Below are positions 15,283 to 22,831 of a DNA stretch of 33,248 bases, in pieces (position 1 is the first letter of the stretch; every line of letters begins with the position of its first letter). The notes beneath the pieces are model-generated. The model searched no databases. It saw only the letters and a list, made by a program, of their open reading frames with translations, and had not been told where the DNA came from. This DNA comes from Elusimicrobiota bacterium (lineage in GTDB: Bacteria > Elusimicrobiota > Elusimicrobia > Elusimicrobiales > UBA9959). A program made the position numbers and the translations under genes. The stretch spans positions 1 to 33,248 of the forward strand of contig JAAYVI010000068.1 in assembly GCA_012517235.1 (NCBI GenBank). Reading direction: 5' to 3'.

Positions 15283-15353
15283 GCGGGCGTAGTTCAATGG
15301 TAGAACGAGTGCTTCCCAAGCATTAGACGTGGGTTCGATTCCCATCGCCCGCT
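15283..15353 (+). tRNA. tRNA-Gly (anticodon CCC)
   Basis: A full cloverleaf folds. The acceptor stem is GCGGGCG (15283-15289) with CGCCCGC (15346-15352) and discriminator T. The D arm is GTTC/GAAC. The anticodon stem is AGTGC/GCATT with loop TTCCCAA, so CCC at 15315-15317 reads GGG. The T arm is GTGGG-TTCGATT-CCCAT. U73 fits bacterial tRNA-Gly. CCA is not encoded. A 67-bp sequence beginning in the T loop is repeated 176 bp downstream (see repeat entries). Confidence 0.95.
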
Positions 15354-15402
15354 TTTAGACTTGCTCAATCTTTTAACTAAGAAGTAAAGCCGACTGCTCG
15401 GC
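15336..15402 (+). repeat. tRNA-Gly 3' end plus trailer: copy 1 of a 67-bp direct repeat
   Basis: This segment runs from the T loop of tRNA-Gly (CGATTCCC) through the acceptor 3' strand into the downstream hairpin. It matches 15512-15578 with a single mismatch (TTTTAACTA versus TTTTAGCTA). A duplicated tRNA 3' end is the usual footprint of site-specific integration or of local tandem duplication. Confidence 0.9.
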
Positions 15403-15405
15403 TTT
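15386..15405 (+). terminator. Hairpin after tRNA-Gly, possible terminator or processing signal
   Basis: AAAGCCGA and TCGGCTTT form a perfect 8-bp stem with loop CTGC. It is followed by ATGTTGGG rather than a T run, so termination would be weak. In the second repeat copy only the GCCGA/TCGGC core remains because the repeat ends inside the stem. Confidence 0.4.
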
Positions 15406-15511
15406 ATGTTGGGAATAGAAAGCCGCAGCGTTGTCGAGCGAGCACGCGAAGACCGCGAGGCGGGACTGCGCGACCGAACGCGAGCGGCGGCGAGCGTGAG
15501 AGTTGTGCATG
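15403..15511. other. GC-rich 109-bp insert between the two tRNA 3' end copies
   Basis: This block is far richer in G and C than the surrounding DNA and is made of CGAGCG/GCGAGC/CGCGA-like words (for example GTCGAGCGAGCACGCGAAG and CGAGCGGCGGCGAGCGTGAG). It holds no plausible gene. Frames that cross it owe their length only to the lack of AT-rich stops. It looks like an intergenic repeat element or a remnant of transferred DNA. Confidence 0.6.
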
Positions 15512-15578
15512 CGATTCCCATCGCCCGCTTTTAGACTTGCTCAATCTTTTAGCTAAGAAGTAAAGCCGACTGCTCGGC
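15512..15578 (+). repeat. tRNA-Gly 3' end plus trailer: copy 2 of a 67-bp direct repeat
   Basis: It repeats 15336-15402 with one mismatch, including the terminal 3' part of the tRNA (GATTCCCATCGCCCGC). It lacks the rest of the tRNA, so it is not a second tRNA gene. It ends at GCTCGGC, after which the sequences diverge. Confidence 0.9.
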
Positions 15579-15607
15579 AAAATAGATGTATGGATGCGTA
15601 GAGGTAT

Positions 15608-15777
15608 GGCAAAAAAAGATGATTAGAGGATTGGAAGATTGGATGATTGGCAAAAAAAGCGAGCTTGCGTTTTCGAACCGAAAAATATAATACGACAGAT
15701 GTAAAGAGTATAGTCGTACGAAAAAGCTTTCGGCGGTTTTGAAGACGGCCCGTAGGATTGGAAGATTGGATAATTAG
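15608..15777. repeat. Intergenic micro-repeats and nested inverted repeats upstream of folE
   Basis: GGCAAAAAAAG occurs at 15608-15618 and 15649-15659. A 24-bp motif starting AGGATTGGAAGATTGGAT occurs at 15627-15650 and 15754-15777 with two mismatches and is itself built of 7-8-nt GATTGGA units. Between them lie nested inverted repeats: CCGAAA (15678-15683) with TTTCGG (15728-15733), enclosing TACGAC (15691-15696) with GTCGTA (15713-15718). No gene is supported here. Confidence 0.65.
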
Positions 15778-15817
15778 AAAGTAAATTTGAAAAAATAAGG
15801 ATAGACGAACATTTAAT

Positions 15818-16960: not shown

Positions 16961-19900
16961 ATGCTTTTTCTAAAATATATTTTGATGAAACGCCAAATGA
17001 AAAAAAGGATTTTATTTTCATTTTTATTTTTAGAGGTTTTGCTTTTTTCAAATGTTAACGCTTTTTATCTGAGGCAAGGCAATGCCGTAGGACTTATGCC
17101 AAACGGAAACTTTGTTTCTTGCGGAGGCTGGGTCTGCTCAGGGGCATCTCCCAACGAATGCTCGGTTTACTCTCAAACCAATTCTTGCGAAATTTATTCT
17201 ACGACGGTAAGCGCTTACTCTCCGATAGCATCGATGAATGTCTCAAGATCTTCTCACACCCTGACGGTTTTATCGGACGGAAGAATATTGGTAACCGGAG
17301 GATATTCGAATACCGGAGCAATTCTTCAAAGCGTAGAAGTATATGACCCCAATTCTTCGCCTCCTTTAGGAACATGGACGAACTTAGGAAATATACTTTC
17401 GGTTCCGCGAGGCGGTCATAGCGCCACATTGATACCTCGCGGCCCAAATGCCGGCAATGTCCTTATATGCGGAGGCCAAAACGCCGCCGCGGGCGTATCC
17501 AGTACTTGCGACATATTCGTAACGGCTTCAAATACGATAAATGCCGGACCTTCTATGAATGCGGCCCGTCAAGCGCATACTACGTCCATAATGCCAAACG
17601 GTAAAATATTTTTTTCCGGGGGATTAAATTCTACCAATATTTCGGCTGCGCTAAGCTATAATATTTCTCAGGAAATATACGACCCCGTATCTAATAGTTT
17701 TACTCCGGCAAATTCTTTAATGGAAGGCAGAGCTTTTCATAATGCGGTAACTTTAAATAACGGGAATGTTTTGATAATAGGCGGATACAACTACGTAAAT
17801 CAAAGAGATATTTACTCCAAAGATAAAAGAGGCCCCGCCTATATGGAAGGTCTCGACGACGTACAGACAAGACAGAACCAGGGGACTCAGGGATATCTGG
17901 AAACATTCGAAATGTTTGACCCTAACGGAGCCAGAGTAACTATAAACTCTTTAAGCTATGGGACCTTGCCTTATAGAGTATCAAAATCCGCTACGATACT
18001 AAAAAATGACGGCACGGTTAATTTGGTCGGAGGTTACGGGAATATCCCCGTAACTTACGGACAGCCGCCGAATTTGCAAATACAACCGGGATCTTTTATA
18101 AACACCAATAACACTACCGGAATAATAACGGGCGGTAATATAACTTTTCAGCCTCAATCCGATATTCTGCTTTCGAGAAAACAAGCGGAAGGCCGTTTGG
18201 TAGAATCGGATTTTTTCTTTGCTCCGAAAGATACCAGATATATAACTCCGTCGATAAGTCTTGAAAATGTCAAAGTATTCATAGGAGAATCCACATCCAC
18301 ATTGGATTCGCAAGCCGTAGTTTGCGTCAAGGCCGGAGACTGCGGATGGTTAGCCGTTAAAGGCGTGGATTTAACATTAAACAATCCGGGCAATATATCT
18401 ACGGCTTATGTCACATGGGATCCTATCAGCGTCACCGATTCCAATAATATAACGATAGCGAGCGGAAAATATACTTGGACCGGGCCTATGGATTCCGGAC
18501 AAACTAAAACTTTAATAGTTACTTCTACGATTTCTTTCACCGCAAATTTCGAAATACCGGAAATATATATAGGACATAATGTATACGGCACATTGACAAT
18601 AAACAATGCCCAGATATCAGACGATTTATCTATGTATATGATGTCTCTTTCGGATATTTATAATGTAAACATACCTACGACCACAATAACACAAACCATA
18701 ACTCCGGAAGGAATAAGAAAAGGACTTTTAACCGTAACATTGGGACCTTTAAATATAGCGGGCCAAACAATACAAAGTTCTACCGAAGGAGTATTATATT
18801 CTACAAATACCAATCCGGCCGGAGACATAATGACCGGACTTATGGGAAGATTGATATTTACTTCCGACGGTTTGGATTTGACCGGCGTAAGAGATCTGGC
18901 GGTATCAAACGACGATTTGACGCCCAATTACGAAGTAGGAGAATCTACAATAGTAGTAAGACAGATGATAATGAGCCCGAGATACGGCTTCTCTCCTCTT
19001 CAATCGGCTTTTATAGACAATACTTACGGTTTCGATCCTGTATTCGATAACTCCGGAGTTCTTACTCCGGCCACAGATATGTTTTTCTCTTCCGGTCTAA
19101 ATTGCGAATATAATCCGTCTAACGATTGTCTGAGAAGTAATAAGGTTTTTAGGCCTTACTCATGGGAGAGCGTATATGTGGAGCAGTTTTATCAAGAATG
19201 GCCGAGCAATAATATAAAATTAAATCAAAAAAGAGCGAAACACACATCTACCGCTTTACCGAACGGTTCGGTTCTCGTATGCGGAGGTACCGACGGAATA
19301 AAGACATTGCAGTCATGCGAATTATTTGATCCTAAAACCGAACAATTCGTGTATACAAGTTCCATGACAATACCGCGCTCCAACCATACCGCCACATTAT
19401 TATCCAACGGCACGGTACTGATAGCGGGGGGGACATGGAACGACGGTATGTATTCGGTGGTATTATCCAGCGCGGAAATTTATTATCCTGACACAAAAAG
19501 ATTTGTGCCTACTTCTCAAATGAATACAGGCAGAATGCTTCACAGCGCTACGCTTTTGGCCGACGGTAATGTTTTGGTCGTAGGAGGAGCGGTTAACGGA
19601 GGATATGCCAATTACGGAGAAGTTTATATAAGCAGCGCCGCAAGATGGGAAACGACTCAAAATAGCGCGGCCGCAAATAATAGACAGGAACATACCGCCA
19701 CTTTCATGAAAAACAATAGAGTTTTAATAGCGGGCGGACTAAACGGAAGCATAGCTTTGAATACGGCTTACAGTTATAATCCGGCTAATAGAAGTTTTAC
19801 CGCCGCCGCATCCATGTCCACCAGAAGAGCGGGGCATACGGCCAATCTGCTTAAAGACGGAAGAGTTTTGGCAATAGGCGGTTCCGACGGCAATCAAGCT

Positions 19901-22831
19901 TTAGATACGGTAGAGTGGTACAGATATGAAACAAATTCATGGACAACACCGTTGAATCCTTATAGTCTGCCGGTGAGAATGCTTTCCAAAAAACACAATC
20001 ACAGAACGGTTTTGCTTCCCAACGGAAAAGTTTTAATAACAGGCGGAGAAAATCCGGGACTTAGAACGACTTTTGCCGAAATGTATAATGTGGATTTCCC
20101 GACTTTTACTTTACACGGAATTATTCCGGTAAGACAGCTGCATACTTCGGTAATAACTTCAAGCGGTATGGTAATGAATATAGGCGGCTTTGACGGTCAA
20201 AACTATTTGGACAGCGTAGATTATAAATACTTTTCCTCTTATCCCGACGCCGAAGGATATTCGACTACTTTTAGAAGAAGACCTATCATATCCACGGCCA
20301 CATTATTCGTAGACAGAGGCGAAAATTTAACTTTAATGAGTTCGGCCACAAACTTTCATTCTATGGGAGAAGCCGGTACAGGTCTGGCCGGGGGAAAAAG
20401 TTCTTCTCATTTTCAGCCGAGAATATATTTAAGCGCGGTAGACAATCCTTCAAGCTTTCTGGTAGATCTCACTACCAGAATATACGGCGGATTAAATACT
20501 TCATGGGAAAAGACCTTATCGTCTATGACTATAACCATGCCGTCTAATCCGGGAGAACTTCCATACGGCTGGTATTATCTATATGCGGTTTCAAACGCTC
20601 AGTTTTCCGAAGGTTATCTGATTCAAGTAACTACTCCAAGACCCAAAGGACAAATAGTTAATTTTTCAGCCGGAGCCATAACGACTTATTCGGTTACCTG
20701 GAGCTGGAATTTGGGTTCTTTGAGCGGCGCTGAAGGGTATGCGGTATTTTCTTCCAGCAATAATGTTTTTATTTCTACTCATGCTTTAAACGACCCGGCA
20801 ACTTTTATTCACGGCGGCCTACAAGCCAATACACCTTCTTCATTAAAAGTAACCGGATATAATTTCGGCGGATACGGCTCGCCTTTAATACAATCGGCTA
20901 CGGTTTATACTTATGCCAATAGACCTATAAATTTGGCGATAGCCAAATCCGGATTTAACTCGATAGAATTAGAATGGGCTCCCAACGGTAATTCAGATAT
21001 GACTCCTTATGAAGTTTCTTTGGCGGAAGAAGATCCTACTTTTACCACCGGAGTATCGACTCCCGTTCCGTTTAGCAATAATCATATAACTACCTCGACG
21101 GTAATATCTTCTTTAACTCCCAATAAGAATTATTACTTCAGAGTAAGAGCCAGAAACGGGGACGGAGTAAATACGGCATACGATCCGGATTTTGCCGGAG
21201 GAACTCCCGTTTCTACTATCACGGTGGCGGCAATAACAAACTTGGGAGGGACGGCATTATCCGTATCGCAGATTTACTGGTCATGGGACTCGGCGCCGGG
21301 AGCAAGCGGTTACGAAGTTTACGATGTCACTTCGGGCACCGATACCGCGGTTTATATAGGATCTACGAGCGTAAACAACTATATACAAAACGGAATATCT
21401 ACCAATACTATGACTATGGTGGAAGTGAGAGCTTTTAGAACCATAGGTATGAATACGGTTTACGGGCCTTTTGCTATTTCTCCGGAAGTATCTTCTTTGG
21501 CCGCGGATCCTTTGCCGGGAGTTCCTAATTCTTATATAAATGTCACGACGGGCAGTCTGACATTGAATTGGATTTCCAACGGAAATCCTCCTTATACCGA
21601 ATACGTAGTCGCTTTTTCCACTACCAATTTCGCTCCGAACACGGAAACATCTATTTATAAGGTAATAGCGACAAGTTATACCGTATATAATCTAAAACCG
21701 AATTATCCTTATAATGCGGCCATAGGAGCTTTAAACGGCGACGGGATAATGTCATCTACAATAACATTCGGCCTAAAATATACTTTAGCCAGACCGCCCG
21801 TAACCGTAAAACCTTCAAAAATATCTTTATCCGGAGTTTATTTGACATGGGATAATCAAGATAATTCCGGAGATACATATTACAGAATAAGGGTAAGTAC
21901 CGATATAAATATGACGCCTTACACCATACCTTACGGCGCAAGTTTTACGGATAAATTTAAAGGAAATTCTTTCGACATATCCGGGCTATGGACAAATACG
22001 ACTTACTATATAGACGTAACCGGCATAAATATGGAAGGAATAATGACGGCTTCCGTAAGAGCCACTCCAAATCCCGTAACGCTTTCGGGTCCGTCGGGGG
22101 CGCCGCCGTTGTCGGTAGGAGGAACTTCCGATCCTACAAAGGATGTGGTAGTGCAGGGAGTATTGCCGCCGGATCCTTTTATATTGCCCGACACAAGACA
22201 AATTACCCTAACCATACCTTCGGGTTCTTTTGAAAAAGAAACAGCCGTGGCAATATCGAGCTCCGCGGAGAATAATTGCGGCTGGCTATCCGAAGGAAGT
22301 CATTCCATAGCCTTTAAGGTCTTTTCGGATTCTCAGCCCAAAGAGCCGGTAACTCTTAAATTCAACTATACTTATAACGAAGCCTATGCTTCCACAAACG
22401 GCATAGACATAAACAGAAACAAAATCGTTCTGGCAAGACACAATCCTCAAACCGGACAATGTATACCTCTTGAAACCAAAGTGGATCAAGGCAATAGAGA
22501 AATAACGGCCAGATTAAACCATTTCAGTTTCTTCCAGCTTATGGTTTATAATCCGGCTAATAATCTTAATAATGTAAGAATTTTTCCGAATCCTTTCTAT
22601 CCCAATAAAGGACAAGGGTATGTTACATTTAAGGATATGCCGGCCGGAGCAAAATTATCGATTTATTCTCTAAGCGGCGATTTAATTTATGAAACCGTTT
22701 CAAACGGTTCCGGAAACGCTTATTGGGAAGGGAGAAATAAAAAAGGTTTTTATGTCGGAAGCGGCGTATATTTATGCGTAGTAAAATCTTCCGCGGGTAA
22801 AAAAGTATTTAAACTGGCGGTGGAAAGATAA
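16961..22831 (+). CDS. Giant secreted Kelch/fibronectin type III protein with FlgD/T9SS-like C-terminal domain
   Basis: It has 1956 residues. A signal peptide covers about residues 13-35 (MKKRILFSFLFLEVLLFSNV). A first block of about six Kelch repeats spans about 38-365 (units like SHTLTVLSDGRILVTGG). A beta-rich domain follows at about 430-700. A second block of seven Kelch repeats spans about 750-1090 (HTATLLSNGTVLIAGG and similar), enough for one seven-bladed propeller. A domain at about 1100-1225 resembles the C-terminal domain after galactose-oxidase propellers (RPIISTATLFVDRGENL ... YGWYYLYAVSNAQFSEGY). Five fibronectin type III-like domains lie at about 1230-1700. The last 85 residues (VRIFPNPFYPNKGQGYVTF ... 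GVYLCVVKSSAGKKVFKL) match FlgD-Ig/type A sorting domains. It is likely a cell-surface adhesin or carbohydrate-binding protein; no catalytic residues were identified. The start could instead be ATG 16985 or 16997. Confidence 0.85.
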   Translation: MLFLKYILMKRQMKKRILFSFLFLEVLLFSNVNAFYLRQGNAVGLMPNGNFVSCGGWVCSGASPNECSVYSQTNSCEIYSTTVSAYSPIASMNVSRSSHTLTVLSDGRILVTGGYSNTGAILQSVEVYDPNSSPPLGTWTNLGNILSVPRGGHSATLIPRGPNAGNVLICGGQNAAAGVSSTCDIFVTASNTINAGPSMNAARQAHTTSIMPNGKIFFSGGLNSTNISAALSYNISQEIYDPVSNSFTPANSLMEGRAFHNAVTLNNGNVLIIGGYNYVNQRDIYSKDKRGPAYMEGLDDVQTRQNQGTQGYLETFEMFDPNGARVTINSLSYGTLPYRVSKSATILKNDGTVNLVGGYGNIPVTYGQPPNLQIQPGSFINTNNTTGIITGGNITFQPQSDILLSRKQAEGRLVESDFFFAPKDTRYITPSISLENVKVFIGESTSTLDSQAVVCVKAGDCGWLAVKGVDLTLNNPGNISTAYVTWDPISVTDSNNITIASGKYTWTGPMDSGQTKTLIVTSTISFTANFEIPEIYIGHNVYGTLTINNAQISDDLSMYMMSLSDIYNVNIPTTTITQTITPEGIRKGLLTVTLGPLNIAGQTIQSSTEGVLYSTNTNPAGDIMTGLMGRLIFTSDGLDLTGVRDLAVSNDDLTPNYEVGESTIVVRQMIMSPRYGFSPLQSAFIDNTYGFDPVFDNSGVLTPATDMFFSSGLNCEYNPSNDCLRSNKVFRPYSWESVYVEQFYQEWPSNNIKLNQKRAKHTSTALPNGSVLVCGGTDGIKTLQSCELFDPKTEQFVYTSSMTIPRSNHTATLLSNGTVLIAGGTWNDGMYSVVLSSAEIYYPDTKRFVPTSQMNTGRMLHSATLLADGNVLVVGGAVNGGYANYGEVYISSAARWETTQNSAAANNRQEHTATFMKNNRVLIAGGLNGSIALNTAYSYNPANRSFTAAASMSTRRAGHTANLLKDGRVLAIGGSDGNQALDTVEWYRYETNSWTTPLNPYSLPVRMLSKKHNHRTVLLPNGKVLITGGENPGLRTTFAEMYNVDFPTFTLHGIIPVRQLHTSVITSSGMVMNIGGFDGQNYLDSVDYKYFSSYPDAEGYSTTFRRRPIISTATLFVDRGENLTLMSSATNFHSMGEAGTGLAGGKSSSHFQPRIYLSAVDNPSSFLVDLTTRIYGGLNTSWEKTLSSMTITMPSNPGELPYGWYYLYAVSNAQFSEGYLIQVTTPRPKGQIVNFSAGAITTYSVTWSWNLGSLSGAEGYAVFSSSNNVFISTHALNDPATFIHGGLQANTPSSLKVTGYNFGGYGSPLIQSATVYTYANRPINLAIAKSGFNSIELEWAPNGNSDMTPYEVSLAEEDPTFTTGVSTPVPFSNNHITTSTVISSLTPNKNYYFRVRARNGDGVNTAYDPDFAGGTPVSTITVAAITNLGGTALSVSQIYWSWDSAPGASGYEVYDVTSGTDTAVYIGSTSVNNYIQNGISTNTMTMVEVRAFRTIGMNTVYGPFAISPEVSSLAADPLPGVPNSYINVTTGSLTLNWISNGNPPYTEYVVAFSTTNFAPNTETSIYKVIATSYTVYNLKPNYPYNAAIGALNGDGIMSSTITFGLKYTLARPPVTVKPSKISLSGVYLTWDNQDNSGDTYYRIRVSTDINMTPYTIPYGASFTDKFKGNSFDISGLWTNTTYYIDVTGINMEGIMTASVRATPNPVTLSGPSGAPPLSVGGTSDPTKDVVVQGVLPPDPFILPDTRQITLTIPSGSFEKETAVAISSSAENNCGWLSEGSHSIAFKVFSDSQPKEPVTLKFNYTYNEAYASTNGIDINRNKIVLARHNPQTGQCIPLETKVDQGNREITARLNHFSFFQLMVYNPANNLNNVRIFPNPFYPNKGQGYVTFKDMPAGAKLSIYSLSGDLIYETVSNGSGNAYWEGRNKKGFYVGSGVYLCVVKSSAGKKVFKLAVER

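Follow-up and report, generated by a model that had tools for sequence, protein, structure and literature searches.

The palindromes known as repetitive extragenic palindromic sequences and bacterial interspersed mosaic elements (REP/BIME) are short, non-coding, hairpin-rich and present in many copies, and they are mobilized in trans by Y1 transposases (REP-associated tyrosine transposases, RAYT). In the insertion sequences IS200/605, in the omega RNA of IscB/TnpB and in the bridge RNA of IS110, a structured scaffold is combined with a segment complementary to a resident site. For genomic islands at tRNA genes, the Islander paper describes a signature made of an intact tRNA gene and a displaced fragment of it (PMC4383910). 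Here, we analyzed a stretch of 33,248 nucleotides from an Elusimicrobiota bacterium (contig JAAYVI010000068.1 of assembly GCA_012517235.1; hereafter the window), in which the gene of tRNA-Gly(CCC) is followed by a second copy of its 3' end. We found that the two copies enclose a member of a family of elements of about 115 bases, folded in an RNA-like manner and free of protein, which are located immediately 3' of tRNA genes. In the sense of the tRNA, these units are ordered as follows: the tRNA, a short trailer, a segment loosely complementary to the acceptor 3' strand, a hairpin (P0), an arm complementary to the T-arm (antiX), two core hairpins (P2 and P3) and the tRNA 3' end again. Our leading, although tentative, interpretation is that the element is a non-autonomous, protein-free structured RNA of tRNA 3' ends, whose tRNA-complementary arms would recognize the host locus.

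Similarly to the islands, phages and tycheposons that occupy tRNA ends, the unit is located 3' of a tRNA with a direct repeat running from the T-loop to the 3' end, the gene being intact and the fragment displaced. Unlike these integrative elements, it carries neither integrase nor cargo, the block being too short to encode an integrase, and it has a period of about 175 bp. Whereas islands at tRNA genes (tDNA islands) have, per element family, one phage attachment site (attP) matched to one tRNA target, a single unit core was found at 26 tRNA species; the unit also differs from them by an inverted T-arm adapted to each tRNA and by a conserved RNA structure. The units resemble REP/BIME in being short, non-coding, hairpin-rich, multicopy and possibly moved in trans, but they are specific to tRNAs in both site and complementarity, and near-complete carrier genomes are devoid of Y1 transposase. 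As for omega and bridge RNAs, the unit can be likened to a structured scaffold with an arm complementary to a resident target site; however, no nuclease or recombinase gene was found beside the units (TnpB, IscB and IS110 were not searched genome-wide) and Rfam offers no match. This likeness is one of working principle. Finally, the unit may share with transfer-messenger RNA (tmRNA) and viral tRNA-like structures an acceptor/T-stem-like pairing in which other domains replace the usual arms, but it presents neither anticodon nor D arm, its T-loop region is paired and its partner is a truncated tRNA copy.

The initial annotation of the window had described a duplication of the tRNA-Gly(CCC) 3' end 176 bp downstream, around a GC-rich block in AT-rich surroundings, and both observations were confirmed. 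The direct repeat joins positions 15329-15402 to positions 15505-15578 with a spacing of 176 (74 nt, 95% identity; the 67 nt first reported contain one mismatch). It starts in the T-arm, also takes in the trailer and the hairpin, and extends to position 15578. The enclosed block presents a GC-content of ~65%, relative to 21-37% in most flanking windows. It opens with a hairpin followed by an 11-nt inverted copy of the T-loop and T-stem of the tRNA (15410-15420). This inverted arm, the RNA structure and the family itself go beyond what had been recorded. The features of the locus are listed below.

15283..15353, + strand: tRNA-Gly(CCC), the host gene, with CCA not encoded (ARAGORN; Rfam RF00005, 71.5 bits)
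15334..15344, + strand: X, the T-loop and T-stem 3' strand (tRNA nt 54-64), TTCGATTCCCA, partner of the complementary arm (sequence; permutation test over 100 units)
15354..15382, + strand: left copy of the tRNA trailer (direct repeat D2)
15383..15518, + strand: entire covariance-model match of the window unit, 129.6 bits
15384..15407, + strand: hairpin P0, GTAAAGCCGA-CTGC-TCGGCTTTAT, with a locus-specific stem (folds; 98.6% of cells paired over 103 units)
15410..15420, + strand: antiX arm, TGGGAATAGAA, which in the window copy departs at one position from the reverse complement of X
15423..15463, + strand: core hairpin P2, CCGC..GCGG and inner stems (fold; covariation)
15467..15509, + strand: core hairpin P3, with the conserved tip GAGCGGCGGCGA (fold; covariation; pattern scan)
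15512..15529, + strand: X' with the acceptor 3' strand, repeating the tRNA 3' end in truncated form from nt 56 (direct repeat; sequence)
15530..15578, + strand: second copy of the trailer and most of P0, where the direct repeat ends; possibly left over from an older unit (cf. the tandem array of C76)

The sequence 15329-15578 was used to search the window's own genome (G000; 1.94 Mb, 140 contigs), where it matched ten places. These matches lie 3' of tRNA-Gly(GCC) (two tandem units, whose antiX, GGGAATCGAA, fits X), Val(CAC), Ser(CGA), Arg(TCT) and Arg(TCG), and also include a decayed copy at Gly(TCC). Inspecting all 42 tRNA genes revealed more full or partial units 3' of Val(GAC), Trp, Asn and Thr(CGT). 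The core is common to the units of this genome and the ends vary, each matching the local tRNA. Because the same block and 3'-end duplication tail other tRNA genes of the genome, the repeat in the window is far beyond chance. A one-off local tandem duplication with random GC-rich filler would account for the single unit detected in the window by repeat comparison and covariance-model scan, but the same block is found 3' of other tRNA genes in this genome and in two phyla, and in congeners the same tRNA either lacks a unit or is tailed by a different one. It thus fails the check that the initial annotation had itself proposed. This local duplication, one of three readings offered by the initial annotation, is so remote that we consider it excluded for practical purposes.

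Several related arrangements were observed in the same genome. Positions 15586-15785, 3' of the window unit, contain degenerate repeats rich in AT (GATGTATGGATGCG.., AGGATTGGAAGATTGG..) together with a block AAAGCTTTCGGCGGTTTTGAAGACGGCCCGTAG, and similar repeats are located 3' of units at several other tRNAs (L002, L004, L005, L009). A longer type of unit is found 3' of Gly(TCC) (L013, contig C95) and Ser(TGA) (L039, contig C1): there, the first strand of P0 is joined to AT-rich repeats, and resemblance to the short unit is limited to the right end (GCGAGAGTTGTGC..GCGA). These breaks at the P0 loops suggest a preferred breakpoint. At Leu(CAA) (L044, two tandem units) and Leu(TAA) (L045), the units present a different core (GAACCCTCATCGGGTTCGCGCTCGAC..) and an arm complementary to the 5' side of the T-stem in the local tRNA; these possibly constitute a second family built on the same principle.

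The left arm of each unit complements its own tRNA over nt 54-64 and, more loosely, over nt 65-70. Across 100 units of the window's family, the agreement between antiX and the complement of the local tRNA is 98-100% over nt 54-62 and 87-90% over nt 63-64, and the end of the arm is sharp because the match falls to 8% at the base past nt 64. At the five variable positions of antiX, the match is 4.75/5, compared with 2.70 when the arms are dealt to other tRNAs (maximum of 3.14 in 20000 permutations). The anti-acceptor segment likewise matches at 5.76/8, relative to 3.25 when permuted. In the window's family, P0, whose tip is often CAACTGCTTG, is placed between the complements of nt 65 and nt 64; P3 bears the conserved tip GAGCGRCGGCGA and the core ends in TTGTGACC. 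The downstream copy of the tRNA 3' end is truncated, starting at nt 56-57, and the host tRNA therefore stays intact. AntiX fits the host tRNA better than it fits the adjacent copy X', which is often decayed or deleted. In the loci of genus g4 (L138, L139, L141, L150, L157, L171), X' is often short of ~4 nt of T-stem, and its pairing with antiX is thus broken.

We analyzed the structure of the unit with a covariance model (R1) built from ten units and restricted to P0, P2 and the P3 tip, and computed covariation on 103 aligned R1 matches. Over the full structure, 91.4% of the cells are paired and 35 of the 44 pairs present double-sided changes; covariation reaches 0.473, relative to 0.162 in shuffled and 0.06-0.08 in slid alignments. 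The ratio of G-U to A-C cells is 262:55, and 50:21 without the two invariant wobble columns (p=8e-4). This excess of G-U over A-C points to an RNA in the tRNA sense. The helix between antiX and X' (P1) is 84.7% paired; 6 of its 9 pairs show double changes, and it is weaker than the pairing of antiX with the tRNA's own X. The Rfam 15 scan of the window returned only the tRNA at the curated threshold, leaving the core unmatched, and at three related loci the other hits were on or beside tRNAs or outside the unit, below threshold.

Unlike the core, P0 is almost perfectly Watson-Crick (904/920 cells, with only 3 G-U). This is what could be expected from a functionless product at the DNA level, in which template switching at the palindromic T-arm during replication would generate inverted copies and gene conversion would homogenize the cores. 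The alternation of X, antiX and X', clearest in the Yanofskybacteria copy L178, also speaks for such a process, as does the lack of a protein partner among open reading frame (ORF) clusters, Y1 and RVT_1 (see below). However, the core is conserved between phyla and its covariation tolerates G-U. In addition, correction of quasi-palindromes should favor the part of the acceptor that is nearest to the loop, but it is antiX that is better kept, and P0 is regularly inserted at a fixed place in the window's family, between the complements of nt 65 and 64. We therefore consider template switching improbable as an explanation of the units.

The R1 scans covered two phyla. Matches were found in 48 of the 59 genomes of the window's family, in 139/341 genomes of Elusimicrobiota and in 48/380 sampled genomes of the second phylum, Patescibacteria, both phyla being named from record titles. 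Since the E-values are approximate and most of the assemblies are metagenome bins, a few placements may be wrong. R1 gave no match on 34 tRNA loci without recognized units. A pattern scan matched Elusimicrobia and Elusimicrobiales and also Parcubacteria and Yanofskybacteria records, and the five genomes behind the loci of the latter type contain 1-10 units each. In the window's family, a same-strand tRNA is located upstream of 111/127 units, most within 60 nt, and 26 tRNA species are involved. With any distance allowed, such a tRNA precedes 33 of 34 sampled units in a second bacterial family (8-16 units per genome in four near-complete genomes) and 31/38 units in Patescibacteria. In both of these groups, the match between arm and tRNA again exceeded permutation. 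The best core identity between phyla is 85%, for L199, whose phylum is not independently verified, and it is 78% in clearer cases.

This distribution bears on the reading of the insert as a minimal remnant of an integrase-borne element. Remnant attachment sites of tyrosine-integrase islands would display the direct repeat starting from the T-loop and the intact tRNA, as in known tDNA islands. One core with matching arms at 26 tRNA species, hundreds of copies and the lack of any recurrent integrase nearby argue against this, and the spacer is a conserved, covarying structure rather than degraded cargo. Such an origin is very unlikely and can also be excluded for practical purposes. Among the readings of the initial annotation, a non-autonomous element targeting tRNA ends comes closest: many tRNAs are tailed, the presence of the unit varies among congeners and the tRNA is intact.

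A few loci depart from the usual arrangement. Units without a tRNA directly upstream were observed at L111 and L156 (genome G013) and at L104 and L106 (G043). At L111 and L156, the unit has lost X' and directly precedes an apparent ribosome site with a start codon, which could possibly reflect reuse as a 5' leader. At L187, the 3' part of a tRNA that is preceded by group I intron-like sequence is also tailed by a unit.

We then compared the window's genome with two congeners (G001 and G002), tRNA-locus synteny being set from the flanks. Among syntenic tRNAs, some have the unit, some lack it and some have one of another subfamily. Val(GAC) and Thr(CGT) present a unit in G000 only; Trp presents a unit in G000 (partial) and G002 and none in G001; Arg(TCT) presents units in G000 and none in G002; Glu(CTC) and Asp present a unit in G001 and none in G002. 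At Gly(CCC) in G001, the unit belongs to a different subfamily and lies immediately before folE. Cores at different tRNAs within one genome can reach 96-99% identity, with P0 at only 58-65% and an antiX that fits each tRNA. At orthologous loci, P0 stems are kept through compensatory changes, as at Arg-TCG in three species (GCCGGAC/GCCAGAC/GCCCGAC), and are also conserved at orthologous Val-CAC loci. The likeness of cores at different tRNAs and the conservation of P0 by locus suggest that cores have spread or been homogenized within genomes and that the arms belong to the locus.

These patterns can also be viewed as those of a host-beneficial non-coding RNA domain, a tRNA-like structure 3' of tRNAs, made up of acceptor strand, P0, antiX:X' and core, that would be matured by tRNA enzymes and serve tRNA maturation or quality control. 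Such a domain would not be selfish, and its units would be retained vertically at old loci. The RNA-type covariation is in line with this view, and so are the compensatory changes that maintain the pairing of P0 and arms at Arg-TCG, the layout of anti-acceptor and antiX, which resembles a stacked acceptor/T helix, and the units of Val-TAC and Arg-TCG, which occur in many genomes with common neighbor genes. Conversely, the units are patchy, being restricted to some tRNAs and missing from congeners at the same tRNA; the tRNA is a better fit for antiX than is X', and X' is often decayed or deleted; and the tandem arrays and the long direct repeats have the look of insertions. On balance, we regard a host RNA as rather unlikely, although a more serious contender than template switching.

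The interpretation of the unit as a protein-free RNA element must itself be weighed against several observations that count against it. Among the ORFs around 183 loci, compared all-against-all, no recurrent transposase, integrase or other driver protein was found beside the units. Y1 transposase is absent from the near-complete carriers G030, G031, G032 and G035, as well as from G055 and G064, and the RVT_1 reverse transcriptase is absent from the carriers G000, G001 and G002. In some units, a terminator-like hairpin lies between the tRNA and the unit. Presence and absence give no separation of gains from losses, and the pattern could result from loss by recombination between direct repeats. 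The near-identical cores could reflect gene conversion between old units, an option raised by the conservation of P0 stems at the orthologous Arg-TCG and Val-CAC loci. Our preference is held at less than even confidence because the moving machinery was not found.

Other candidate drivers and origins were rejected. RAYT was rejected on the absence of Y1 transposase from good carriers, and a resident reverse transcriptase on the absence of RVT_1, a gene found in 30/149 genomes of the order. No recurrent GIY-YIG cluster was found among the top ORF clusters around the 183 loci, and a GIY-YIG endonuclease was not retained as partner. Small GIY-YIG-like ORFs, read by eye, were observed directly upstream of unit-bearing tRNAs at L178, L199 and L059, and in G013. 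Reverse transcription primed by the tRNA on arms resembling primer-binding sites was rejected, the complement generally stopping short of the CCA end. A phage or plasmid origin was also rejected: the plasmid collection gave no match to the unit, the phage matches listed covered the tRNA alone, and the one match among viral contigs was on a chromosome-like contig among ordinary bacterial genes.

The location at tRNAs, the arm that tracks the host tRNA, the RNA-type core and the turnover are together best explained by a protein-free RNA element. We infer its transcription, its mobility and the machinery behind it as follows. The tRNA transcript would extend 3' into the unit, whose core would act as a scaffold bound by a putative factor and whose arms would act as a guide, recognizing the tRNA gene and tying the element to it. 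Recognition by the arms could lead to homing into, or persistence at, that tRNA 3' end. Occasionally, another tRNA would be seeded and the arms would then be rewritten to the new target. The stronger proposal of a new class of RNA-guided selfish elements without a protein of their own, co-transcribed with the tRNA as a fold, with arms rewritten per site and crossing between Elusimicrobiota and Patescibacteria, is unlikely on present evidence, although slightly less so than a host RNA. The element is previously undescribed, and no Rfam family, paper or transposase explains it; no description of it was found in a structured-RNA survey or elsewhere in the searched open literature, and this literature excludes most subscription journals and preprints.

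Elsewhere in the window, positions 16961-22831 contain an ORF of 1956 aa, in which many Kelch repeats occur along with fibronectin III domains. In G001 and G002, several contig ends (e.g., L282, L289, L300) lie within tens of bases of a tRNA, which is consistent with assembly breaks at these repeats.

These results reveal hundreds of conserved, covarying copies 3' of tRNA genes in two phyla for which metagenomes are the main source of knowledge. If mobile, the units would be among the smallest known mobile elements, with arms rewritten to each target; to our knowledge, such rewriting is described for no other small element. If they are instead host RNAs, they would constitute a new layer of tRNA biology in small-genome organisms. 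Either way, the units may be the reason why contigs break at tRNA genes in these assemblies, and the covariance model is ready for use in annotation.
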